64,000 nucleotides of DNA from Candidatus Desulfofervidus auxilii (GTDB lineage Bacteria; Desulfobacterota; Desulfofervidia; Desulfofervidales; Desulfofervidaceae): positions 1,681,667-1,745,666 of the forward strand of contig NZ_CP013015.1 in NCBI RefSeq assembly GCF_001577525.1, read 5' to 3'. The notes beneath the pieces were generated by a model, which ran no database searches, was not told the DNA's origin, and saw only the letters and a program-made list of their open reading frames with translations. Of this stretch, positions 4,475 to 16,703 are shown one piece after another (position 1 is the stretch's first letter; every line of letters begins with the position of its first letter). The position numbers and the translations under genes were made by a program.

Positions 4475-6523
4475 ATGGCAGAGGAAAGAATTTATGAGGA
4501 ATTTGAGCACTATTTGACACCTCCCTCTTGGAAAGATCGCGTCTGGGAAATTGAAGAATACAAGGCTTTTTATGAAGAAACAATCAAAGACAAAGAAAAC
4601 CTTGAGAAGTGGTGGGCAAAATGGGCAAATGAGCTTCCCTGGTTCAAGAAGTGGAATAAGGTTCTCGATGATAGCAATCCTCCATTTTATAGATGGTTTG
4701 TAGGAGGAGAAACAAATCTAGCTTATCTTTGTTTGGATCGCCATATTGAAGAGGGAAGAAAAAACCAATTGGCCTTGATTTGGGAAGGAGAACCATGGGA
4801 TGAAATGATTAGAAGACCTAAAGAAATCAGAAAATTTACTTATTATGACCTTTATCGAAGGTCAAATCGTATTGCTTATGCCTTGAAGGAAAAATTGGGG
4901 GTAAAAAGGGGTGAGATTTTGACCTTTTATTTACCCATGATTCCTGAACTCCCACTTTACATGCTAGCTGTTCAAAGGTTAGGGGCCAAACATAGCATTG
5001 TTTACAGTGGATTCAGCGCCTTTGCCCTAGCTCAAAGGGCCATGGCTGCTGGTTCTCGCATAATTGTTACGGCAGATGCCCTATATAGAAATGGGAAAAT
5101 AATACCTTTAAAGGAAATTGTGGATGAGGCCATAGAAATATGTGAAGAAAAGGGTCATAAGATAGAGCATGTAATTATGGTCAAAAGAACCAATAGAGCA
5201 GCTATACCCTGGATTAAAAAGAGAGATATTTGGCATCACGAGTTTATTAGATATATTTCTGAGAATGCAAGAATTGAACCAGTAAAGTTAGGTTCTGAAG
5301 ATATGTCCTACATCCTTTACACATCTGGCACAACAGGCGCTCCTAAAGGTGCGCAACACAGTATTGGTGGATATGCAGTGGGGCTTTATACCACTATGAA
5401 ACTCATATTCGATATAAAGGAAACAGATATTTACTGGTGTGCAGCGGACATAGGTTGGGTAACGGGGCATTCTTATATCGTGTATGGTCCCCTTATAACC
5501 GGTACCACAACGCTCATGTATGAAGGAGCACCAACTTATCCTGGGCCGGATAGATGGTGGAACATCATAGAAAGATATGGAGTAAATGTGTTTTATACCT
5601 CTCCTACCGCTATTAGAATGTTAATGAAATTCCCATTAGACTATGTGAAAAAACACGATTTATCTACGATAAGAATCTTCCATTCTGTAGGAGAGCCAAT
5701 CAATCCAGAAGCATTCCGTTGGTATTATAAAAATATAGGTAAGGAAAACATTGTGGCCTCCAGCACCTGGTGGATGACCGAAACAGGCCAGATGTTAACA
5801 GGGCATTTTCCAGGCCTGGGAAAAATCTTTCCTTTAAAACCAGGCACAAATGGTTACCCTTTACCTGGTGTAAAGATGGAAGTATTGGATGAAGATGGGA
5901 ATCCCTGTAAACCTGGAGAAAGAGGTTATTTTGTCATCACCAATCCCTGGCCAGGGATGTTTATGACATTATATCAAGATGACCAGAGATATATTGATGT
6001 ATATTGGTCAAAGTTTTCTAAAGACAACAAATGGCGCTTTTATACAGGAGATTTTGCAGTTAAAGACCAAGATGGATATTTGTGGGTTTTAGGAAGGGCA
6101 GATGATGTGCTTAATATTGCCGGTCATCGTGTTGGCACTGCTGAAGTGGAATCAGCAATGGTCATGCACCCAGCGGTAGCTGAAGCAGCTTGTGTAGGTA
6201 AACCTCACGAAATTAAGGGAGAAGTAGCCTTTGTCTTCACTGTGCTTAAACAGGGATTTGTGCCCAGTGATGAGCTTGTAGGAGAACTGAGAAACCACTT
6301 AAGAAAGACCATTGGCCCTATAGTGGCATCAGATGCTACTATTCTCTTAGTAGATATGGTACCTAAAACCAGAAGTGGAAAAATCATGAGGAGATTGTTA
6401 AAAGCGGTGATCACTGGTCAAAAACTAGGAGACGTTACCACTTTAGAAGATGAAAGTGCTATTAAAGAGGCAGAAAAGGCCTATGAATACCTAAAAACAA
6501 CCTTGGAGAGAGAAATGGCTTAA
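4475..6523 (+). CDS. acs: Acetyl-CoA synthetase, AMP-forming (copy 1)
   Basis: 682 residues. It activates acetate with ATP and CoA to acetyl-CoA, AMP and PPi in the cytoplasm. Visible motifs: the phosphate loop YTSGTTGAPKG (~residue 282), CAADIGWVTGHS, EPINPEAFRWYY, TWWMTETGQ, the hinge YTGDFAVKDQDGY and the C-terminal PKTRSGKIMRR whose Lys is the classical acetylation-control site. The acetate-pocket Trp of TWW is kept, but the Gln normally after it is Met. A strong aggagg ribosome site precedes the ATG. It stands alone on the plus strand, convergent with an operon holding a second acs; the two differ widely, so they are not a recent duplication. Confidence 0.95.
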   Translation: MAEERIYEEFEHYLTPPSWKDRVWEIEEYKAFYEETIKDKENLEKWWAKWANELPWFKKWNKVLDDSNPPFYRWFVGGETNLAYLCLDRHIEEGRKNQLALIWEGEPWDEMIRRPKEIRKFTYYDLYRRSNRIAYALKEKLGVKRGEILTFYLPMIPELPLYMLAVQRLGAKHSIVYSGFSAFALAQRAMAAGSRIIVTADALYRNGKIIPLKEIVDEAIEICEEKGHKIEHVIMVKRTNRAAIPWIKKRDIWHHEFIRYISENARIEPVKLGSEDMSYILYTSGTTGAPKGAQHSIGGYAVGLYTTMKLIFDIKETDIYWCAADIGWVTGHSYIVYGPLITGTTTLMYEGAPTYPGPDRWWNIIERYGVNVFYTSPTAIRMLMKFPLDYVKKHDLSTIRIFHSVGEPINPEAFRWYYKNIGKENIVASSTWWMTETGQMLTGHFPGLGKIFPLKPGTNGYPLPGVKMEVLDEDGNPCKPGERGYFVITNPWPGMFMTLYQDDQRYIDVYWSKFSKDNKWRFYTGDFAVKDQDGYLWVLGRADDVLNIAGHRVGTAEVESAMVMHPAVAEAACVGKPHEIKGEVAFVFTVLKQGFVPSDELVGELRNHLRKTIGPIVASDATILLVDMVPKTRSGKIMRRLLKAVITGQKLGDVTTLEDESAIKEAEKAYEYLKTTLEREMA

Positions 6524-6537
6524 TAAATTAAAGAGAA

Positions 6538-6562
6538 AAAGGCCACCTTAAAGGTGGCCTTT
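6538..6562. terminator. Bidirectional intrinsic terminator between convergent operons
   Basis: A perfect inverted repeat, aaaggccacctt / aaggtggccttt, with A-rich flank on the left and T's on the right, so it can work on both strands. It lies just after acs copy 1 and overlaps the stop codon of the cNMP-CBS-DUF294 gene. Confidence 0.85.
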
Positions 6563-8285
6563 AGTATGCTTTAGCTAAGAAATCCTTAAATTTTTTTAAA
6601 CTTCTTAAACAGTCTTCTAATAATATCTTTTCTTGATTAGAAAAAATACCAGGATCAAGCCACTCAGCTTCAAATTTAATCCTAAAATGATTTAAAAAAT
6701 TATAAATTTCTTTAAATTCAGTTACTTTTTCTTCACTTAAAATTTTCTTTTCTCTCAAAACATCCAGACGGTCAAAGGTATTAGTTTCCCTTATCTCTTT
6801 TAAAAAGGATAAAAATCGCACCCCATGGACAACCATTTCTGAAATCTCTGTTAAATTCAAACCTTTGGCAAAATCTCCAGAAGTTAATAATACCTGATCA
6901 CGCACAAAACCCAAAGGCAAGTTTATCTTTGAAATATGTTCATATAATAAACTCAATATTTGATCTTTAGGAAAAGCAATCGCCTCTATTTCTTTAAAAA
7001 TCCTTTCTTCTCCTCCAATTCTTCTCCTATCCAGAAAAGCACAAATTTTATCTACTTCTTTATTTTCTAGCCACTTTTTAAAATGAATATTAAGTTTCTC
7101 AACAGAATTCAAAAAAACACTATCTTTGTGAGCAGTAAAACCCGACTTTTTAAATACTTCCCTAAACTGGTTTATAGAAAAATCCCCTTTATATATCAAA
7201 CAGAGTTTTAAGGGTAATAACCAACTTTGCTCCATCCGTCCTAGTTCTCCTAATCCCATTAAACAACAGGAAGAACATTTTAAAGAAGAAAAAAGTCTAC
7301 ATAAGATGCGGTCAACAAACTCCGAAGTGAGTTTCCTAATTACCATGGGGCTTGCACCTTCATTAAATAATACCTTAATTACTTTATCTATGTTGGTAAT
7401 TAACTCAGCCAGCCCTGCAATGGCATTTTTTCTCTCTATCTCAGTAACAAAACTAATGAGATTTACCCCTTGAAGAAGGATTAAATCATGTAAGGAAATT
7501 ACGCCAATTAAACGTCTGTTATCTAAAACACAGAGATGATGGCAATTATATTTAGCCATTTGTAAAAGAGCTTCAAAATAAGAGGCTTCTTTATCAACTC
7601 CCACTATAGAAGTGGTCATAATGTGGCTTATAGGTTTTTTAAAATCAAGGTTTCTAGCAACTACTTTTTGGGTCAAATCTGTTTTTGTCACAATTCCTAA
7701 AGGTTTGTTACCTTCATCAATGACCACAATGGAACCCACTTTGTATTTTGCCATCTGTTGGGCAGCAGCAATAATAGAAGTTTCTTTATTGCAGGTTACA
7801 GGAGGTTGCTTTATAAGGTCACTCAATTTTACAGTAAGGTGAGACACCAAAGGCTTTTGTTTTCTCAATTGGTGCGCTAGTGGCTTAATTCGGGTCTCAA
7901 AATGTTCTTTAAAAATAGAATATTTATCACAGAGTTTTAAAAAAGTTCCTTTAGGAATTAGATAACATACCACATCTTCTATAGCCATGGCCTTGTATCC
8001 CTTTTCTCCTTTTATAAGGTTGATACCACCTATGTAATCTCCCTCACTTCTGTATTCCACTCTTTCTCTTTCAATTTTTACGATGCCTGAATAAATTAAA
8101 TAGAGAAATGAAATTAAAGAAGTTTCCTCCAAAATTGCAGTCCCTTTAGGATAATATTCTATTAAAATCTCTTTTGCCACTTCTTTTATTACTGATTTAG
8201 GGAGAAGATTAAAAGGAACCACGGTAACCAAAAATTCTTCAATACGCTGAAGGGGAAGGCTTAAACTCGCTACTCGATGTGGCAA
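6561..8285 (-). CDS. cNMP-binding / CBS / DUF294-type protein with dead nucleotidyltransferase
   Basis: 574 residues. Domain order: a cyclic-nucleotide-binding-like beta roll (~20-130), two CBS domains (~155-275; adenine-nucleotide sensing), a GlnD-like DUF294 nucleotidyltransferase region (~300-420) and the helical DUF294 C-domain. The intact neighbour has GSEGRREQ followed by TDQDN, but here the region reads GLGELGRMEQ and then leucine-rich residues with no Asp pair, so transfer activity should be lost. It probably acts as a regulatory sensor of the acetate symporter/acs operon. The start is TTG, backed by aaaggag 7 nt upstream; the first ATG is far inside the cNMP domain. It is the last gene of the operon. 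Confidence 0.85.
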   Translation of the reverse strand: MPHRVASLSLPLQRIEEFLVTVVPFNLLPKSVIKEVAKEILIEYYPKGTAILEETSLISFLYLIYSGIVKIERERVEYRSEGDYIGGINLIKGEKGYKAMAIEDVVCYLIPKGTFLKLCDKYSIFKEHFETRIKPLAHQLRKQKPLVSHLTVKLSDLIKQPPVTCNKETSIIAAAQQMAKYKVGSIVVIDEGNKPLGIVTKTDLTQKVVARNLDFKKPISHIMTTSIVGVDKEASYFEALLQMAKYNCHHLCVLDNRRLIGVISLHDLILLQGVNLISFVTEIERKNAIAGLAELITNIDKVIKVLFNEGASPMVIRKLTSEFVDRILCRLFSSLKCSSCCLMGLGELGRMEQSWLLPLKLCLIYKGDFSINQFREVFKKSGFTAHKDSVFLNSVEKLNIHFKKWLENKEVDKICAFLDRRRIGGEERIFKEIEAIAFPKDQILSLLYEHISKINLPLGFVRDQVLLTSGDFAKGLNLTEISEMVVHGVRFLSFLKEIRETNTFDRLDVLREKKILSEEKVTEFKEIYNFLNHFRIKFEAEWLDPGIFSNQEKILLEDCLRSLKKFKDFLAKAY

Positions 8286-8297
8286 ACAAATCTCCTT

Positions 8298-8999
8298 TTA
8301 AACTTTAGCTATTCTTACTAAATCCTTTAGGGTCATATTTTTATCTTCTGCTTCCGTTAATAATTTCTGAAAGAGCATGGCTGTACCTAGCACATCCCCA
8401 ATAACACTATGTCTATCAAACAAAGGGACTCCTAACTCTTTAGCTACCGCATCCAGTGAAAGGTCATGATTTTGGGGCTCAAGACTATAATTGGCATATG
8501 GTTTTTTAATAAAGAGAAATAACTTTAAAACATCAAGAGTAATATTAGGCAACCGAATTCCAAAATAATTTTCCATCTCTTTGTTAATAAACATCAAATC
8601 AAAACCTGCTTGATAACCCACAAGTATATCTTGGCCACAGTATTCAATAAATTTTATCAAAATTTCATCTGCTTTGGGTCTATCTTCTACCATGGAAGGA
8701 GTAATCCCGTGCACAAAAATAGATGGGGCTGGGATTTCCGCTCTAGGTTGAATTAACTCATAAAACATATCTGAAAGCACTACCCTTCCTTTGGTGATAC
8801 CTAACGCCCCTATAGCTACAAGTTCTGCTTCTTTCTTCAAACCAGTAGTTTCTGTATCAAACACTACAAATCTAGGGGTTTTAATCCCTATATTAAGCTT
8901 TGGAGGTATTGTTTCTAAAATCTCCTTAATATGTAAAGGTAGGCGTCTTTTTGGTTTTTTCTTGGTAAATCTTTTTTTAAAGATTGTCCAAAATGACAT
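8298..8999 (-). CDS. DEDDh 3'-5' exonuclease, DNA polymerase III epsilon-like
   Basis: 233 residues. Exonuclease motif I is DTETTG (~residue 48), motif II lies around HGITPSM and YQAGFDLMFIN, and motif III is DRHSVIGD with the His and Asp that define the DEDDh class. The basic N-terminus (KKRFTKKKPKRR) precedes the domain. Proteins of this type are regularly encoded between DUF294 proteins and ActP-like symporters in bacteria; their role there is unknown and probably not replication proofreading. It lies 11 nt after the CBS-DUF294 gene and 12 nt before the cNMP-CBS-DUF294 gene, with an aaggaaag ribosome site. Confidence 0.88.
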   Translation of the reverse strand: MSFWTIFKKRFTKKKPKRRLPLHIKEILETIPPKLNIGIKTPRFVVFDTETTGLKKEAELVAIGALGITKGRVVLSDMFYELIQPRAEIPAPSIFVHGITPSMVEDRPKADEILIKFIEYCGQDILVGYQAGFDLMFINKEMENYFGIRLPNITLDVLKLFLFIKKPYANYSLEPQNHDLSLDAVAKELGVPLFDRHSVIGDVLGTAMLFQKLLTEAEDKNMTLKDLVRIAKV

Positions 9000-9010
9000 G
9001 ACTTTCCTTT

Positions 9011-10450
9011 TTAAATTATTGGTGAAAGATAAAATTTCTCCCGCAAAACAGCCTGAAATCTATTAATTGCCTTTAGTGCTCCTTTTAGAAAGCCGTATTC
9101 CAATGAACTTAACTCTCTCAGGTCTATTATATTATCAGGAATTCCCTCTCTTCCCACACATTTCAGCTGATGCTGTAGCCGGATGCGCATCAAAAAATCA
9201 AAAGCTCCAAGTAAATCTTGGGCATCCTGCTCACTAATTACTCCTTTTTCTTTAAGTTTATTTAAACGCTGCCAAGTATTTTTATCTTCTATGTCTTCCA
9301 TTAAGGCATAAAGCCGGATGCCATTAACAATTGCAGAAATTCCATAAAGCTTGATATTAAGCAAATTTCTTCCTCCACTTGCCCTTTGAGCAGCAAACCA
9401 CTCTAAAAAATTGCTTGGGGCATTGATTAGGGCAGTTTGGGCTAAATTCCTAAATATCCCACGCCAGCTTTTTATAGTCTTGACAAAAATGTGATATAAA
9501 TCCTTTGCTAAGGAAAAATTTCCCCATATTGGTCTCAAATCTGCTATCACTGTTAACCATATAACTGTATTTTCATTCTGATTAATTATCCATTTCTTTA
9601 ATGCTTTTTCCCATGAAGAGATAGAACGGCACCAGTTAGGCTGATTGGCCATTATCCCTCCTGAGCAAATAGGGTAACCACACTGAAGAAGATAATTTAC
9701 TGCTTTATCCCCAAAAGAATTAGCTATCTCAATAGGAATATTGCTAAAGACTATTCCGTTATCTTGGTCTGTAATTAAAGTTTGCTCTCTACGCCCTTCA
9801 CTGCCAAATACTAGCCAACAAAGATGCCCTGATAAATCTTTTATACCTTTTTCTTGAATAAGAGATGAGGTAGTTAATTCTAAAATTTTTCTAATAATAT
9901 GGTCATGAATTTCAGTAATTAATAAACATAAATGATACATACTTAACCCTGATCTAAGCAAAGAAGCTGCTACCTGCGATGTTTGTTTAAATAGAAAACT
10001 TAAACCTTCTAGTGAATTTTGTTCCCCAATTTCCCTAATAAAGGCAATGGGATGAGGAGTGCTCAATAACATCAAGTCATGACTGGAGATCACACCTTTA
10101 ATTCTTCTTGTTTCATTCACAACAGGCAGGTGGTGAATATCATTTTTCATCATAATCCGTAATGCCTCAAAGGCAATTGTCTCAGTAGAAATAGTTACCA
10201 CTGGTTTGGACATAATGCTTTCAACAGGTATCTCAGTGCCTAAATTATGGGCCAGAACTTTATTCCGTAAGTCCTTATCAGTGACAATACCCAAAGGAAT
10301 CTCCTGCTCATCCACCACCACCACAGAACCTATTTTGTTTTTCACCATCATTGAAACTACTTCATGAACCTTTATATCAGCCTTACATATTACAGGTGGA
10401 CGGGAAACAAGTGAAATTACAGATGAGTTCAAAAGATCCAGATTATGCAT
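9011..10450 (-). CDS. CBS-pair / DUF294 nucleotidyltransferase, motif intact
   Basis: 479 residues. Two CBS domains (~15-135) are followed by a GlnD-like nucleotidyltransferase domain with the full motif GSEGRREQTLITDQDN (~residues 218-233), FGDKAVNYLL and a later LRPIWG, then a helical substrate-binding DUF294 C-domain. By analogy with GlnD and GlnE it may transfer a nucleotide to a partner protein; the target is unknown, and symporter, acs and the inactive paralogue are candidates. The start ATG has no good ribosome site, and a stable hairpin lies just upstream, so expression is probably set below that of the symporter. Confidence 0.88.
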   Translation of the reverse strand: MHNLDLLNSSVISLVSRPPVICKADIKVHEVVSMMVKNKIGSVVVVDEQEIPLGIVTDKDLRNKVLAHNLGTEIPVESIMSKPVVTISTETIAFEALRIMMKNDIHHLPVVNETRRIKGVISSHDLMLLSTPHPIAFIREIGEQNSLEGLSFLFKQTSQVAASLLRSGLSMYHLCLLITEIHDHIIRKILELTTSSLIQEKGIKDLSGHLCWLVFGSEGRREQTLITDQDNGIVFSNIPIEIANSFGDKAVNYLLQCGYPICSGGIMANQPNWCRSISSWEKALKKWIINQNENTVIWLTVIADLRPIWGNFSLAKDLYHIFVKTIKSWRGIFRNLAQTALINAPSNFLEWFAAQRASGGRNLLNIKLYGISAIVNGIRLYALMEDIEDKNTWQRLNKLKEKGVISEQDAQDLLGAFDFLMRIRLQHQLKCVGREGIPDNIIDLRELSSLEYGFLKGALKAINRFQAVLREKFYLSPII

Positions 10451-10462
10451 CTAAGAATTTTA

Positions 10463-10492
10463 AAGGGTCTTACCTTTAAAGGCAAGACCCTT
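10463..10492 (-). terminator. Intra-operon hairpin, partial terminator or processing site
   Basis: An inverted repeat, aagggtctt / aagaccctt (9 bp), whose loop region contains a further cctttaaagg palindrome, so almost the whole 30 nt can fold. On the minus strand it follows the 28-residue peptide gene and precedes the CBS-DUF294 gene. Only a short T run follows, so partial termination or mRNA stabilisation is more likely than full termination. Confidence 0.6.
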
Positions 10493-10497
10493 CTAGA

Positions 10498-10584
10498 CTA
10501 ACCAAACGCTCCTGCGCCTAGTAAAAAGATAAATATAATAGTAAAGGCTAAAACCAAAATTAAGGTAATATCTTCCCCTTTCAT
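10498..10584 (-). CDS. 28-residue single-span symporter accessory peptide
   Basis: A very small gene: ATG at 10584, TAG at 10498-10500, and a strong ribosome site (taggaggag) 4-5 nt upstream. The 28-residue product begins MKGEDITLILVLAF, continues as one hydrophobic helix and ends GAGAFG. It begins 10 nt after the stop of the symporter gene. Small one-span peptides encoded directly beside sodium:solute symporters are known as symporter small accessory proteins, and length, topology and place all fit. It probably sits in the inner membrane with the transporter; the exact role is not established. Confidence 0.8.
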   Translation of the reverse strand: MKGEDITLILVLAFTIIFIFLLGAGAFG

Positions 10585-10593
10585 ATTCTCCTC

Positions 10594-12402
10594 CTACTTG
10601 CTTTTAGTAGGCAATACCTTAGCTACACCTACCGGGGCCTTTATCTCTTCTATAACAATATTCTTTTCTACTTCAGCCCGCTGAATCTGTTCATCTGTTA
10701 TATATGACAACCCTGCCTTAAAGCAAAGTGCCCACATCATAACAATCCCTATTAACCACCAAGTGATTTGCCATGACCAAAGAGGGGGAAAGCCAGCAAA
10801 AGAAAAGCCCTTGTTCCCTAAAATAGCCAAAGGTCCGATGGCAAACAGATACCATAAAGGAACACCTATTTTCAAAAACCTTCTCCAATTCCTTTGTGAA
10901 GGAGTGGGGCTATCAATACTATCTAACCACTGACGCATCTCTTGTTGTCGATTTTTAATCTCTGGCGAATCTTTTACTCCCAAACCCCTACAGAGATAAG
11001 CTACTAATAAGGCTGCAAAAATCCCCCATCCAGCACAGTGAATTGTAAGAGGATATTTAATTATCTTATAAGTGATAAACACAGCAACCATTCCTGCTAA
11101 TACTCCAAGCGCTGCCCCTATTCCAGGGAATCTAAATCCCCAAATAGTTCCTAAAAGAGGTAAATACATGATGAATCCAAAGGCAGTAGCTAGCCCTCCT
11201 AACATAACCAAGGCAGCCTTTGAAGTTAAACCTACAATTAGGGCTACCGCAGTAATTAACACCGCTAATAATCTGGAAGTCCAAATCTGCTCAGCATGAC
11301 CAGCATTAGGCCTCATAAAACGAAAATAAACATCACGACATATAATCGTAGCACCGGTTCCTACATAAGGAGCAGCTGTGGAATGCATGGCAGCGATGGC
11401 ACCTATAAACACCAGTCCTAGCCAGAATCCTGGTATATAGTTTTTCATAAGCAAGGGTACCAAGTCAGAATCCTTAGTAATACCTAATACATCGGTAAGA
11501 AGCACACCCCCCAATCCCTGAAAAGCAGTAAAAAAGAACAGGGCAAATCCAACTACAAATGTAGATGCAAATGCCTGTTGCCAGGGAAAAGGACGAGGGT
11601 TTTTATTGCCAAATTGCCACATGGTAAAAGCTGGTGATGCCTGAATGCCCATCAGGGCAAACATATAGGTAAGGATCATAACCCCAGTCCATATAGTTTT
11701 ACCTGAAGTAAACTCTATCATGGATGGAATTTCCAAATACTTAGATGGTAATTTAGCTATTTTAGCGCTAAAATCTGACCAGCCACCAAATTGTTTTAGG
11801 GTAAATAACCCAATAATAATAATACCTGCTACTAGCAATATACATTGAAGCATTCCCACCCAGGTACTAGCACGTAAACCACCTGCTGCCACATAAAATA
11901 ACACTACTCCAGCCAGAAATACAGCCCCCCATTCGAAAGGAAATCCTGTTACCCAGTGAAAGAGGGCACCAGCAGCCATAAATTGAACAGCAGAATAGAA
12001 ACAGGAATAAAGGAAAGCGGTGATAACTACCAACCATCTCATAGCTTCATTTCCAAAATAATAAGCATACATATCCCCAGGGGTGATAAATCCATATCTT
12101 TTTCCCAAAAGCCAAACTCGTTTAGCGAAAAAAGTGCCAGTTATAGGAATGGTTAAAACATAAAAAGATGCAAAAGCATAAGGAAGTCCATCCCTCCAGA
12201 TCAGCCCAGGATGACCAATGAATGTCCATCCACTAAAAGAAGCAGCAGTGGCCGCTAAAAGAAAGGCTATCATAGGAATCTGTCTACCAGCAATAGTATA
12301 TTGGGCCGTGGTTTTGGCCTTGATAGCCCCTTCTATGCCCCAATAAATACAATAAACAATGTAACCAATAAGTAGTATCCAAACCCACGTCACTCCGCTC
12401 AT
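10594..12402 (-). CDS. Sodium:solute symporter, acetate permease (ActP)-like
   Basis: A 602-residue inner-membrane protein of the SSS family with about 13 hydrophobic segments. The N-terminal stretch YTIAGRQIP and AAATAASFSGWTFIG, and YGFITPGDMYAYYFG, are typical of the ActP/PutP-like core. A longer loop near residues 470-500 and two late membrane segments extend it. Placed directly after acs copy 2 (18 nt gap), it most probably imports acetate or another short carboxylate with Na+ for activation by that enzyme. An aaggagg ribosome site precedes the ATG. Substrate is inferred from context, not from a substrate motif. Confidence 0.9.
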   Translation of the reverse strand: MSGVTWVWILLIGYIVYCIYWGIEGAIKAKTTAQYTIAGRQIPMIAFLLAATAASFSGWTFIGHPGLIWRDGLPYAFASFYVLTIPITGTFFAKRVWLLGKRYGFITPGDMYAYYFGNEAMRWLVVITAFLYSCFYSAVQFMAAGALFHWVTGFPFEWGAVFLAGVVLFYVAAGGLRASTWVGMLQCILLVAGIIIIGLFTLKQFGGWSDFSAKIAKLPSKYLEIPSMIEFTSGKTIWTGVMILTYMFALMGIQASPAFTMWQFGNKNPRPFPWQQAFASTFVVGFALFFFTAFQGLGGVLLTDVLGITKDSDLVPLLMKNYIPGFWLGLVFIGAIAAMHSTAAPYVGTGATIICRDVYFRFMRPNAGHAEQIWTSRLLAVLITAVALIVGLTSKAALVMLGGLATAFGFIMYLPLLGTIWGFRFPGIGAALGVLAGMVAVFITYKIIKYPLTIHCAGWGIFAALLVAYLCRGLGVKDSPEIKNRQQEMRQWLDSIDSPTPSQRNWRRFLKIGVPLWYLFAIGPLAILGNKGFSFAGFPPLWSWQITWWLIGIVMMWALCFKAGLSYITDEQIQRAEVEKNIVIEEIKAPVGVAKVLPTKSK

Positions 12403-12420
12403 TTTCTCCTCCTTTTCTAT

Positions 12421-14346
12421 TTAGTCTGCTAATGTTGTTAAATCCCCTGGGTCTAAACCTAACTCCTTTGATTTCAATACCCTACGCATAATCTTACCAC
12501 TGCTGGTCTTAGGTATATTTTTCACAAATTCAATAGATTTAATAATAGCTATTGGACCAAGTTCCTTTTGCACATATTGTCTTAATTCTCTATCTAATTC
12601 ATCGGTGGGCTTATATCCCTTTTTCAAAACTACAAACACTTTAGCCACTTCCCCTTTAATAGAATCAGGAATACTTATACAAGCTGCTTCAGCTACCGCT
12701 GGATGAGAAAAAAAGGCATTTTCTACATCGGCTGTGCCTATACAATGCCCGGCTATCTTCATAATATCGTCAGCACGGCCTTGAATCCAGAAATAACCAT
12801 CTTCATCTTTTCTGGCCACATCACCTGTAGTGTAAACATTACCAGGAATAATCTCCCAGTATTTTTTATACCCATCTGGGTCACCCCATAAGGTGCGGAA
12901 CATAGCTGGCCAGGGTCGTTTAATGACTAAAAATCCCCCTTTACCTTGTGGTATAGGATTCCCTTCTCTATCCACAATTTCTACATGAATAGCTGGAAAT
13001 GGTTTGGCGACAGAACCTGGCTTTAAAAGAGATATGGGGAAAGGAGTAATCATAAACATCCCTGTTTCTGTTTGCCACCAAGTATCCATAATAGGACATC
13101 TTTCCCGTCCTACATTTTCATAATACCATAGCCAGGCTTCTGGATTGATGGGCTCTCCTACTGTACCTAACAAACGGAGTGTCTTTAGATGATGACGACG
13201 AGGCAACTCAGCCCCAAATCGCATGAGCATTCTAATAGTAGTAGGAGCAGTATAAAGGATATTAACACCAAATTTATCCACAATTTGCCATAATCTGTCT
13301 GCTTTAGGACAAAGGGGATGCCCTTCATACATTAATGTGGTGGCACCACATAAAAGGGGACCATAAAGTAGACAACTATGACCCGTTACCCAACCTATAT
13401 CTGCGGCACACCAATAAATATCCGTCTCCTTCAAGTCAAAAACCCACTTCAAGGTGCGATAGACACCTACCATATAGCCACCATGAACATGCAATACCCC
13501 TTTAGGTTCTCCAGTGGTGCCTGAGGTATAAAGAATATAAAGGGGATGTTCGGCGTCCAATATTTCTGTTTCACATTCTTCTGATGCCCCTTCCATTAAA
13601 TCATCCCACCAAAGGTATCGGCCATCACTCATATCTATTGGTTCCCCTGTTCTTTTTACTACAATCACGTGTTCTACACTAGGACACTCAATAATAGCTT
13701 CATCTACCGCCTTTTTAAGATTAATGATCTTGCCATTCCAATAGGCTCCATCACTGGTAACTATTACCCTTGCTTTGGCATCATTAACCCTCTTTTTTAA
13801 TGCTATAGCACTAAAACCAGAATGAATTACCGTATGAATTACCCCTATCTTAGCACATCCTAGCATAGCAATAGCTGTTTGTAATAAATTGGGCATATAA
13901 ATAGCCACTCTATCACCTTTCTTTAAACCTAGAGACTTAAGCACACTGGCAAATTGGTTTACACGCCGATAAAGCTCATAATAAGTCAATTTTTTCTTCT
14001 CTCCCAGTGGCTCACCTTGCCAGATGATAGCCACCTTATTTTTCCTAAAAGACTTGATATGCCTATCTAGGGCATTATATACAATGTTGCACTTTGCCCC
14101 TACAAACCATCTGTAAAATGGAGCATGGCTCTCATCTAAAACCCGATCCCATTTTTTAAACCATTCTAGTTTTTCTGCTGCTTCTTCCCAAAATCCTTCT
14201 AAATCTCTTTGCCCTTTTTCTAAAGCCTTCTTATAATCTTTAGGACTTATATTTGCCTCTACTACTATTTCTGGTAAGGGACGGAAGACACGTTCTTCTG
14301 ATAAAAGGGTCTCTGTAGGTTCTTTGAACCTAAAACTCTCTTCCAT
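12421..14346 (-). CDS. acs: Acetyl-CoA synthetase, AMP-forming (copy 2)
   Basis: 641 residues, first gene of the minus-strand acetate operon. Key motifs: YTSGTTGEPKG (P-loop), CAADIGWVTGHS, EPINPEAWLWYY, the standard TWWQTETG acetate-pocket motif, YTTGDVARKDEDGY and PKTSSGKIMRR with the regulatory Lys. It is the more canonical of the two acs genes in the window. Coupling with the symporter, small peptide and DUF294 proteins suggests a dedicated acetate uptake-and-activation unit, perhaps with different affinity from copy 1. A gggag ribosome site lies upstream of the ATG. Confidence 0.95.
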   Translation of the reverse strand: MEESFRFKEPTETLLSEERVFRPLPEIVVEANISPKDYKKALEKGQRDLEGFWEEAAEKLEWFKKWDRVLDESHAPFYRWFVGAKCNIVYNALDRHIKSFRKNKVAIIWQGEPLGEKKKLTYYELYRRVNQFASVLKSLGLKKGDRVAIYMPNLLQTAIAMLGCAKIGVIHTVIHSGFSAIALKKRVNDAKARVIVTSDGAYWNGKIINLKKAVDEAIIECPSVEHVIVVKRTGEPIDMSDGRYLWWDDLMEGASEECETEILDAEHPLYILYTSGTTGEPKGVLHVHGGYMVGVYRTLKWVFDLKETDIYWCAADIGWVTGHSCLLYGPLLCGATTLMYEGHPLCPKADRLWQIVDKFGVNILYTAPTTIRMLMRFGAELPRRHHLKTLRLLGTVGEPINPEAWLWYYENVGRERCPIMDTWWQTETGMFMITPFPISLLKPGSVAKPFPAIHVEIVDREGNPIPQGKGGFLVIKRPWPAMFRTLWGDPDGYKKYWEIIPGNVYTTGDVARKDEDGYFWIQGRADDIMKIAGHCIGTADVENAFFSHPAVAEAACISIPDSIKGEVAKVFVVLKKGYKPTDELDRELRQYVQKELGPIAIIKSIEFVKNIPKTSSGKIMRRVLKSKELGLDPGDLTTLAD

Positions 14347-14609
14347 AATCAGTCTCCCTTTAAAAAATCTATGGTTAGATCTAATTTAAACCAGCTAAAA
14401 CAAGAATGTCTAGAGACCGCCAGATAAAAGGACTGTTTTAAAGACAGACGGTTAAAGAATACGGTAAAAGGCAAAAATCAAAATAACTCTTCCAAAATTC
14501 AAACACAGTCAAATATATAAGTATATAAGGCAAGCGGTAGTGTGGAGTGCTCGCTCGTGGTTGGAATTTTTTCCAAAAAACAATCGCGGATTTTAGGTTG
14601 CCAAAATTA
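14347..14609. other. Divergent intergenic region with inverted repeat
   Basis: A gene-free region between the acetate operon (minus) and the CsgG-like lipoprotein (plus). It holds a 16-nt perfect dyad, ttggaa-tttt-ttccaa, at 14561-14576, and an AT-rich tract (about 14510-14530) that could hold the acetate-operon promoter, though I see no clear -35/-10 on the minus strand. I see nothing else. Confidence 0.5.
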
Positions 14610-14638
14610 TTGAAATTGTGTTTATATTCTGATATAAA
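14610..14638 (+). promoter_or_regulatory. Sigma-70 promoter for the CsgG-like lipoprotein gene
   Basis: TTGAAA at 14610-14615, 17-nt spacer, TATAAA at 14633-14638. This is 5/6 in both boxes with ideal spacing, giving a transcript start about 20 nt before the ATG at 14665. Confidence 0.7.
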
Positions 14639-14664
14639 TTAGAAAAATCTGTTTGGAGGAGGAC

Positions 14665-15405
14665 ATGAAAAAGCAGTTTTTGTTCTTTTTATTGGTTTTT
14701 GTAGGTATGGGAATGGTTTTGGCATGTGGTCCTGAAATAAGCACTAATGTGCAAACAGCAGGGCCTACTGTACAGCAGGCAGTTACCTATGAAGGGCCAA
14801 AGGCCCGAATTGCTGTAGCCAGGTTTAAATGTAAAGCGGCCAAATGCAGCGGGGAAATAGGAGATGGTTTGACTGATATGTTAGCTACTGCTCTTTTCCA
14901 GACAGGAAGGTTTGTGGTTTTGGAAAGGGGAGAAGGGTTAGAGGATATTAAAGAAGAACTCAATTTAGGCCAATCAGGGTATGTAAAACAAGAGAAGGCA
15001 CCTCAAATTGGTCTCATGGAAGGAGCAGATATCCTAGTCATGGGTGCCATCACTGCTTTTGAGCCAAAGGCTTCTGGTATAGGAGGTGGTGGTGTGGTTG
15101 TGCCCTTTAAAGTGCCATTTATTGGTGGGGCAACTATAGGCAAAAAGGAAGCATATATTGCTGCTGATATAAGACTGGTAGATGTGAGAACAGGAAGGAT
15201 AATAAATGCTACTAAGGTGGAAGGTAAGGCTTCTAGTTGGAAAGCAGGAGGAGGGGCTGGGTTCCTAATTGGTTCTGTGGCCTTAGCTGGTGGTTTAGGA
15301 GGTTATAAAAATACTCCTATGGAAAAAGCAGTTAGAGTGATGTTAGATAGTGCGGTTCAGGCTATTGCCCAAATGGTGCCTGAAAGTTACTATAGACAAA
15401 AATAA
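14665..15405 (+). CDS. CsgG/HfaB-family lipoprotein
   Basis: 246 residues. The signal peptide ends in a lipobox (MVLAC), so Cys20 should be acylated and the protein anchored in the outer membrane. The body (IAVARFKCKAAKCSGEIGDG, LATALFQTGRFVVLERG, AYIAADIRLVDVRTGRII) is a CsgG-type domain; in E. coli CsgG forms the curli secretion pore. No curli subunit genes lie nearby, so this may serve another surface role. I chose ATG 14665 because ggaggagg lies just before it; a TTG 12 nt upstream would start inside the ribosome site. It is monocistronic with its own promoter. Confidence 0.85.
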   Translation: MKKQFLFFLLVFVGMGMVLACGPEISTNVQTAGPTVQQAVTYEGPKARIAVARFKCKAAKCSGEIGDGLTDMLATALFQTGRFVVLERGEGLEDIKEELNLGQSGYVKQEKAPQIGLMEGADILVMGAITAFEPKASGIGGGGVVVPFKVPFIGGATIGKKEAYIAADIRLVDVRTGRIINATKVEGKASSWKAGGGAGFLIGSVALAGGLGGYKNTPMEKAVRVMLDSAVQAIAQMVPESYYRQK

Positions 15406-15493
15406 TAAAATTAGTCCTAATTGTCTTCAGCAACTCCAGGATGCAAACAAAGGGGTTGTAAATCTCAAGATAGTTTCACAGTCCTGGGATTGC

Positions 15494-15521
15494 TTGACAA
15501 GAAAACAAAGAGTGTTAAATT
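15494..15521 (+). promoter_or_regulatory. Possible promoter of the aminotransferase-serA operon
   Basis: TTGACA (15494-15499) followed after 16 nt by TAAATT (15516-15521). The -35 is perfect and the -10 is 4/6. It lies 40 nt before the aminotransferase ATG. Confidence 0.4.
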
Positions 15522-15560
15522 TTGCTTTTATGTTATTTTTCATTATTTTGAGGCAAGGAT

Positions 15561-16703
15561 ATGTTTAAATATTATCTTTTTACCCCTGGTCCTACACCTG
15601 TGCCTCCCAAGACTTCTTTAGCTATGGCTGCCCCTATTATTCACCATCGCTCTCCCCAATTTGCTACAGTTTTGGCAGAAGTAAAGGAAAATTTAAAATA
15701 TGTCTTTCAAACTCAAAACGATGTCTTAATTTTGGCCTCTAGTGGAACAGGAGGAATGGAAGGTGTGGTTACTAATACCCTTTCTCCAGGGGATAAGGCA
15801 TTAGTGGTAAGGGCAGGAAAGTTTGGTGAGCGCTGGGCAGAAATCTGTAAAGCTTATGGAGTAGAAGTTCTTAATATTGATGTTGAATGGGGAAGATGTG
15901 TAAAGGCAGAGCAAATTGCTCATGGATTAGACAAAAATCCAGAAATAAAAGCTGTTTTTGTTCAGGCCCATGAGACTTCTACAGGGGTTAAATTTCCTTT
16001 GAAAGAAATTGCTGAGGTGGTCAAGAAAAGAGAAACCACTATTTTAGTGGTAGATGCCATATCAGCTCTTGGGGCTATGGAGATAAAAACCGATGAATGG
16101 GGTTTGGATGTGGTAGTAGGTGGTTCCCAAAAGGCCTTAATGTTACCTCCTGGCTTGGCCTTTGTTTGCTTGAATGAGAAGGCTTGGAGATTTGTGGAGG
16201 AATCCCGTTTACCCAAATATTATTTTGATTTTTCTAAAGAGAAAAAAAGCTTAGAGAAAAATCAAACCGCTTATACCCCTGCGGTTTCTTTAATTATAGG
16301 CTTGAGAGAAAATTTGAGGCAGATTAAACAAATAGGTTTGGAAAATATTGTTAAATATCACCAACGTCTTTCTGATGGGGTAAAAATGGCTGTTAAGGCC
16401 ATGGGACTTTCTATTTTTACTAAGGAAAATCCCTCTGAGGTCCTAACCGCAGTGGAAGCCCCAAAAGGAATTGATGCTCAAATGATTGTAAAAAAATTAC
16501 GAGAGGAATACGGAATTACCATTGCCGGAGGACAAAGTCAATTAAAAGGAAGAATTTTTCGCATTTCTCATATGGGATATACAGATGAGCATGAAATGGT
16601 GATGACTATTGCTGCTTTGGAACGGGTGTTGATTGAGTTAGGTTATGAGCTTATTCCAGGCACAGGCGTAAAGGCAATACAACAAATATTACTTCAAAAA
16701 TAA
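15561..16703 (+). CDS. Class V aminotransferase, probable phosphoserine aminotransferase
   Basis: A 380-residue PLP enzyme of the alanine-glyoxylate / serine-pyruvate aminotransferase branch. Visible: FTPGPTPVPP at the start, the ASSGTGGMEGV cofactor-phosphate region, VDAISALGAMEI with the pyridine-nitrogen Asp, and GGSQKALMLPPG with the Schiff-base Lys (~residue 193). By sequence alone it would be called alanine-glyoxylate aminotransferase. It lies 11 nt before serA, so conversion of 3-phosphohydroxypyruvate to phosphoserine is the better functional guess; related class V enzymes do this in some autotrophic bacteria such as Hydrogenobacter. Substrate is inferred. Confidence 0.85.
   Translation: MFKYYLFTPGPTPVPPKTSLAMAAPIIHHRSPQFATVLAEVKENLKYVFQTQNDVLILASSGTGGMEGVVTNTLSPGDKALVVRAGKFGERWAEICKAYGVEVLNIDVEWGRCVKAEQIAHGLDKNPEIKAVFVQAHETSTGVKFPLKEIAEVVKKRETTILVVDAISALGAMEIKTDEWGLDVVVGGSQKALMLPPGLAFVCLNEKAWRFVEESRLPKYYFDFSKEKKSLEKNQTAYTPAVSLIIGLRENLRQIKQIGLENIVKYHQRLSDGVKMAVKAMGLSIFTKENPSEVLTAVEAPKGIDAQMIVKKLREEYGITIAGGQSQLKGRIFRISHMGYTDEHEMVMTIAALERVLIELGYELIPGTGVKAIQQILLQK

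Follow-up and report, generated by a model that had tools for sequence, protein, structure and literature searches.

Genes and features of the locus

The window, by which we mean the whole stretch of 64,000 nucleotides analysed here, belongs to a single-contig genome of 2.54 Mb. The gene of interest and its neighbors are listed below in the order of their coordinates.

6561..8285, minus strand: gene for a cNMP-binding/CBS/DUF294 protein (domain matches)
8298..8999, minus strand: gene for a DnaQ-like 3'-5' exonuclease (PF00929; TIGR00573 above cut-off)
9011..10450, minus strand: gene for a CBS-DUF294 protein, no Shine-Dalgarno sequence (PF00571, PF03445, PF10335)
10462..10493, minus strand: hairpin between the peptide gene and the CBS-DUF294 gene (z -5.84; counterpart in the related genome G001)
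10498..10584, minus strand: 28-codon gene for a predicted single-helix membrane protein, the proposed small subunit of the symporter (profile match, conservation, purifying selection)
10588..10595, minus strand: Shine-Dalgarno sequence AGGAGGAG, overlapping the TAG stop codon of the symporter gene (10596-10594)
10594..12402, minus strand: gene for an SSS (SSF) symporter of 602 amino acids (PF00474, E 3.7e-32; SSS fold of the model)
12421..14346, minus strand: gene for acetate--CoA ligase (ACS), the upstream neighbor (NF001208 and TIGR02188 above cut-off)

The symporter matched PF00474 with 112 bits against a cut-off of 22.8, which places it in the SSS family, and it was the sole SSF match in the genome. 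Its structural model aligned to 5nva over 462 residues (Z 32.5, rmsd 2.8) and to SGLT2 (8hez_A) over 494 residues (Z 28.0, rmsd 3.5). In the latter alignment, model residues 3 to 559 were covered and residue 667 of 8hez_A was reached, these ranges being the first and last aligned residues only. Since the alignment extends to residue 667, which we take to be located within TM13 of SGLT2, the modeled symporter seems to contain a counterpart of TM13. The closest solved sequence was that of the monocarboxylate transporter SMCT1 (E 2e-8), and this match, together with the neighboring ACS gene, suggests that the substrate is acetate or a similar monocarboxylate. The symporter gene itself is ordinary, as is the hairpin.

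A second acetate-CoA ligase gene was identified at positions 4475-6523 on the plus strand, and the 2 ligase genes flank the other genes of the operon on opposite strands. A perfect 12-bp hairpin, terminator-like on both strands, is located between the convergent genes at 6538-6562 and is probably a two-way terminator.

A conserved peptide beside one symporter clade

The DNA upstream of the peptide gene reads AAG TAG GAG GAG AAT ATG, with 9 nt between the stop codon of the symporter gene and the ATG codon of the peptide gene. The open frame around the gene comprises 31 codons only, which leaves the ATG at 10584 as the only sensible start, and Shine-Dalgarno-like stretches were also present 5' of the gene in the relatives whose sequences were compared. 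The 28-residue product, MKGEDITLILVLAFTIIFIFLLGAGAFG, contains one hydrophobic span (GRAVY 1.8), and a single helix of 21 residues was predicted by AlphaFold2. In a model of the symporter read through into the peptide, the pLDDT values of the peptide helix were about 63 to 65, too low for a confident docking on the symporter, and the mean for the model was 77.

A profile inferred from alignment A1, which contains the window's own peptide sequence, matched the peptide in the window's genome with an E-value of 5.8e-11, and the next best match was at 0.667. The peptide was 28 amino acids long in 33 of 35 loci and 26 amino acids long in the remaining 2 (L008 and L032), which also lacked the full glycine tail. 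The protein starts with the motif M-x-x-E-D and ends with the motif G-x-G-x-x-G. Residues E4 and D5 were invariant across the 24 members of the alignment, an invariance that is partly built in because the head motif was also used in the later tabulation of loci. The pair was missing in 2 members recovered by the profile search (L081 and L082), and the head motif is thus strong, not absolute. Residues G25 and G28 were invariant in the 29 sequences compared.

The codons of 35 genes of 28 codons each were compared, namely those of the window, G001 and 33 other loci. The third codon positions were the most variable, the mean pS was 0.70 versus a mean pN of 0.25, and the identity was 0.62 in frame 0 versus 0.38 and 0.35 in the other 2 frames. 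Among the 25 closest pairs listed, the dN/dS ratios were mostly in the range of 0 to 0.25; a single pair reached 0.74, and for another the ratio was not computable. The peptide gene is under purifying selection, with amino acid changes being far rarer than synonymous changes. Between the window (10498-10584) and G001 (L047), the peptide differed at 32% of its residues and the symporter at 10%, showing that the peptide helix changes faster than the symporter in this pair.

None of the 24 peptide members scanned matched a Pfam family over the cut-off, and the only 2 weak matches were to other families. The NCBIfam model for the NGO_0222 family membrane protein (NF042413) matched the window's peptide with 17 bits (E 0.0055), which is below the curated cut-off of 38 bits, and the G001 peptide with 14 bits; only 2 of the 24 members matched at all. 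The peptide family is covered by no Pfam or NCBIfam model.

To place the peptide in a broader context, the symporter was searched for in 84,980 species genomes, yielding 40 loci, of which 37 were examined and 36 contained DNA downstream of the symporter gene. A same-strand peptide open reading frame followed the symporter gene in 35 of the 36, the sole exception being L029. A script output suggesting a fusion of the 2 genes in L018 was rejected, as a TAA stop codon separates them. In Desulfosarcina cetonica (L037, 4001-5789), the symporter matches were in separate pieces, which suggests a frameshift or a sequencing error.

Within the order of G121, for which 146 genomes were searched, 49 matches to the close symporter clade (58% to 68% identity) included the C-terminus, and 46 of these had a same-strand peptide gene beside them, at a position between 5 nt short of the end of the symporter alignment and 238 nt beyond it. 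Two of the 3 misses are 6 and 30 nt away from the end of their contig, and the third (G116:C929) is the L029 locus, in a genome that contains a lone peptide gene on another contig. The window's genome and 5 relatives of the same family or order contained either both genes (2 genomes) or neither (4 genomes, of which 2 are just 81% to 82% complete). The gene pair was also found outside Desulfobacterota, in loci titled Desulfovirgula, Peptococcaceae, and Actinomycetota. In samples of the phyla of the latter 2, those of G103 (299 genomes) and G118 (296 genomes), the symporter was identified at E <= 1e-60 in the seed genome only.

No peptide gene accompanied the more distant symporters (34% to 44% identity, open frames of about 660 to 700 residues), either in 9 loci (L058-L066), of which L061 is truncated at its start by a contig end, or in 5 further genomes (L091-L099). 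An ACS match was adjacent to several of these distant symporters. The peptide is strictly associated with one symporter clade. The pairwise distances of the symporters and the peptides were correlated (r 0.82, n=29 loci), with none of 2000 permutations reaching as high a value, and the correlation was 0.46 (n=25; 0 of 2000 permutations) when the window, G001, L002 and L003 were omitted, although such a correlation could also be expected from shared descent alone.

The peptide open reading frame is a real coding gene, beyond what chance could produce, and its protein sequence has been conserved next to this symporter across dozens of genomes. The initial annotation, made from the window alone, had described a 28-codon gene with a good ribosome site, which is confirmed by the Shine-Dalgarno sequence AGGAGGAG and by a protein family kept beside the same symporter; its description of a clean single-span product linked to the transporter is strongly supported by the comparative data.

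Out of 57 peptide matches at E <= 0.01, 46 adjoin a symporter gene and 11 do not. Among the non-adjacent copies, G202:C141 adjoins a symporter fragment, the one in G230 adjoins a symporter remnant and has lost the E-D pair, and G233:C176 is located at a contig edge. The matches in G131, G248, and G234 were weak and were judged to be probably due to chance. Five lone peptide genes (L069, L072, L073, L075, and L077) had no symporter match within the fetched stretch. These 5 copies indicate that the peptide can exist apart from the symporter and, together with the symporter without a peptide at L029, that the pair is not absolutely obligate.

Solitary copies would fit a peptide that acts in trans, as a regulator that inhibits the symporter or passes it to a membrane protease in the manner of MgtS and MgtR, and not as a constant subunit. 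The peptide is in the same size class as known small regulators: MgtS (31 amino acids) is described as an inhibitor of PitA, and small proteins as steering FtsH-dependent turnover (PMC10710835). However, the tight 1:1 coupling of the 2 genes, with the Shine-Dalgarno sequence overlapping the stop codon, argues for their being produced together at all times and not conditionally, and the 3 symporter loci in G105 have each their own peptide gene. We consider a regulatory role unlikely.

The hairpin and the downstream genes

The hairpin at 10493-10462 consists of 14 pairs with a folding energy of -22.5 kcal/mol, compared with a mean of -8.5 for shuffled sequences, none of which was as good in 200 trials (z -5.84). 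It begins 4 nt past the stop codon of the peptide gene, and a gap of 11 nt (AAAATTCTTAG) with no Shine-Dalgarno-like stretch separates its end from the ATG codon of the CBS-DUF294 gene. The 64-kb window contains 15 inverted repeats of at least 11 nt with close arms, including this one, and the others are mostly A+T-rich. A search of Rfam with positions 8000-15000 yielded one match (E 0.27), which did not reach its gathering score and was not located at the hairpin.

In G001, the one family member with the locus, the symporter is 90% identical to that in the window and the corresponding position is occupied by a hairpin (-29.5 kcal/mol, z -6.08). Both arms have changed between the 2 genomes and the pairing has been retained. 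The hairpin sequences in the more distant loci were unrelated. We surveyed RNA structure in 37 loci (the window, G001, and 35 others), taking the top 5% of each locus's own stretches, a background that is mostly coding sequence. Such structures were found in 30 loci within the 100 nt that follow the peptide gene and in 2 loci within the 100 nt that precede it, a contrast that is weak as a control because most of the preceding stretch encodes the symporter. For a fairer comparison, we took the 100 nt past the point where the ACS alignment ends; a top-5% structure was present there in 13 of 26 loci, and gene-end structures are thus common in these genomes.

The stem is strong, structures recur after the peptide gene, and a -35/-10-like match at 10485-10457 overlaps the hairpin, as would be expected if it were an intrinsic terminator or attenuator, with the downstream genes having a promoter of their own. 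Intrinsic terminators combine a G+C-rich stem with a U-run; the stem is present, but no U-run follows it in the window (tail AAAATTCT) or in G001, and a terminator scan of positions 6000-16000 identified 12 sites, the hairpin not among them. T-rich tails were also rare among 35 strong hairpins identified in a looser 120-nt search, with at least 5 T in 8 positions in 2 of them and at least 4 in 10. Furthermore, promoter-like matches in the region numbered 20, compared with 28.7 expected by chance. Termination or attenuation at this site is somewhat unlikely. Because U-runs are rare and the ACS gene was followed by structures in half of the loci, the hairpin appears to be an ordinary one of the gene-end or processing type.

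The initial annotation had placed a boundary between the transporter and the regulatory genes at the hairpin. As anatomy this holds, given its retention with pairing changes in G001 and the survey counts on either side of the peptide gene, weak as that control is; the proposed step-down in expression at the DUF294 and exonuclease genes is no more than plausible, given that the hairpin has no U-run and that strong structures are also frequent after the ACS gene. The poor ribosome site of the next gene was also recovered, as the DUF294 gene lacks a Shine-Dalgarno sequence in both genomes, the hairpin being separated from its start codon by 11 nt in the window and by 10 nt in G001. With a start so placed, low or regulated translation of DUF294 is plausible.

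The same spacing, 4 nt from the peptide stop codon to the hairpin in the window and 10 to 11 nt from the hairpin to a start codon without a Shine-Dalgarno sequence in the window and G001, would also suit an open reading frame of which the translation matters and not the product, that is, a coupling or leader peptide that runs ribosomes to the hairpin and thereby sets the expression of the downstream regulators. We regard this as very improbable, since it is the amino acid sequence that is conserved and not the hairpin sequences, and since in 5 loci (L002, L003, L008, L011, and L026) the peptide gene is present but the 100 nt that follow contain no top-5% structure.

A candidate small subunit of the symporter

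The peptide gene accompanies nearly all of the close symporter relatives examined, and the peptide is therefore probably an overlooked small subunit of the symporter. In our view it is likely a single-helix subunit dedicated to a symporter of the acetate/monocarboxylate type, MAP17-like but of a separate family. The peptide would be translated from the symporter's message and inserted beside the symporter, presumably with its N-terminus in the cytoplasm, as one hydrophobic helix with the M-x-x-E-D head at the membrane face and the G-x-G-x-x-G tail at the other end of the chain. It would most likely bind to the symporter by packing on the outer helices, and may stabilize it by aiding its folding, survival, or cycling. 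The 2 genes would form one expression unit closed by the gene-end hairpin, with the sensor-type CBS-DUF294 and exonuclease genes as a separately initiated part downstream.

SSS symporters are known to take a single-helix partner, since MAP17 (PDZK1IP1) serves SGLT2 and SGLT1 with a single transmembrane helix, as is proposed here for the peptide; the helix is described as contacting TM13 of SGLT2 and the protein as an essential auxiliary subunit (PMC10803289). The transporters are also alike, the window's symporter model being alignable to SGLT2 up to model residue 559. Unlike the peptide, MAP17 is an animal protein with parts outside the membrane, and it is by analogy that we infer a partner role for the peptide. 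No match to the MAP17 Pfam family was found in the 24 peptide members scanned.

Several bacterial transporters have small partners encoded beside them. KdpF, a single-helix subunit of about 29 residues in KdpFABC, resembles the peptide in size, in its single helix and in the location of its gene beside that of its transporter, but serves another type of transporter; none of the 24 members matched its Pfam family, and the neighboring genes encode ACS, SSF, DUF294, and exonuclease proteins, not Kdp proteins. The small DUF4212 subunit (PF13937) pairs with VC_2705-type SSS symporters and is encoded upstream of them. It is likewise a small membrane protein encoded beside an SSS symporter, but its model has 79 positions, and the Pfam scan gave no match in the 24 members. 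A search of 33 genomes with this model, including the window's, gave no match over the cut-off; the one weak match was to part of a 495-residue frame in G112.

YjcH (DUF485) is a small membrane protein, longer than the peptide, that is encoded beside the acetate-type SSS symporter ActP and an ACS gene. The gene arrangement is thus similar, but the window's symporter scored 43.3 bits against an ActP cut-off of 1099, and no Pfam or NCBIfam match to DUF485/YjcH was found among the peptide members scanned. The same scans gave no match to MetS, which together with MaAIMP_sms represents tiny single-helix small subunits of sodium symporters, although these belong to the NSS and not to the SSS family. 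The peptide would join the tiny single-helix proteins that assist transporters; by profile it is not DUF4212, DUF485, MetS, KdpF, or MAP17.

The titles and abstract openings found in searches of the open-access literature made no mention of a protein of 28 residues next to a bacterial SSS symporter. We give even chances to the more far-reaching proposal that the peptide is an undescribed subunit of 28 residues (26 in the outgroups) needed by a single clade of SSS symporters for monocarboxylates. It would then be among the smallest known subunits of any transporter and a bacterial counterpart of MAP17 with a separate origin, in the position that the larger DUF4212 or DUF485 proteins occupy in related systems.

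Because gene callers tend to miss open reading frames of this length, many sulfate reducers may have a near-constant transporter partner that is overlooked, and a symporter expressed without the peptide could fail. The pair could also provide a minimal bacterial system for the role of one added helix on an SSS symporter, which is the same question as for SGLT2 and MAP17.

A second conserved small open reading frame was observed roughly 190 to 280 nt past the stop codon of the symporter gene in 10 loci (L004, L006, L010, L013, L018, L024, L030, L035, L036, and L037). No Pfam or NCBIfam model matched over the cut-off in the 2 members scanned. The product of 75 to 79 amino acids contains an N-terminal CxCG...WCxxC zinc ribbon and one likely membrane helix.
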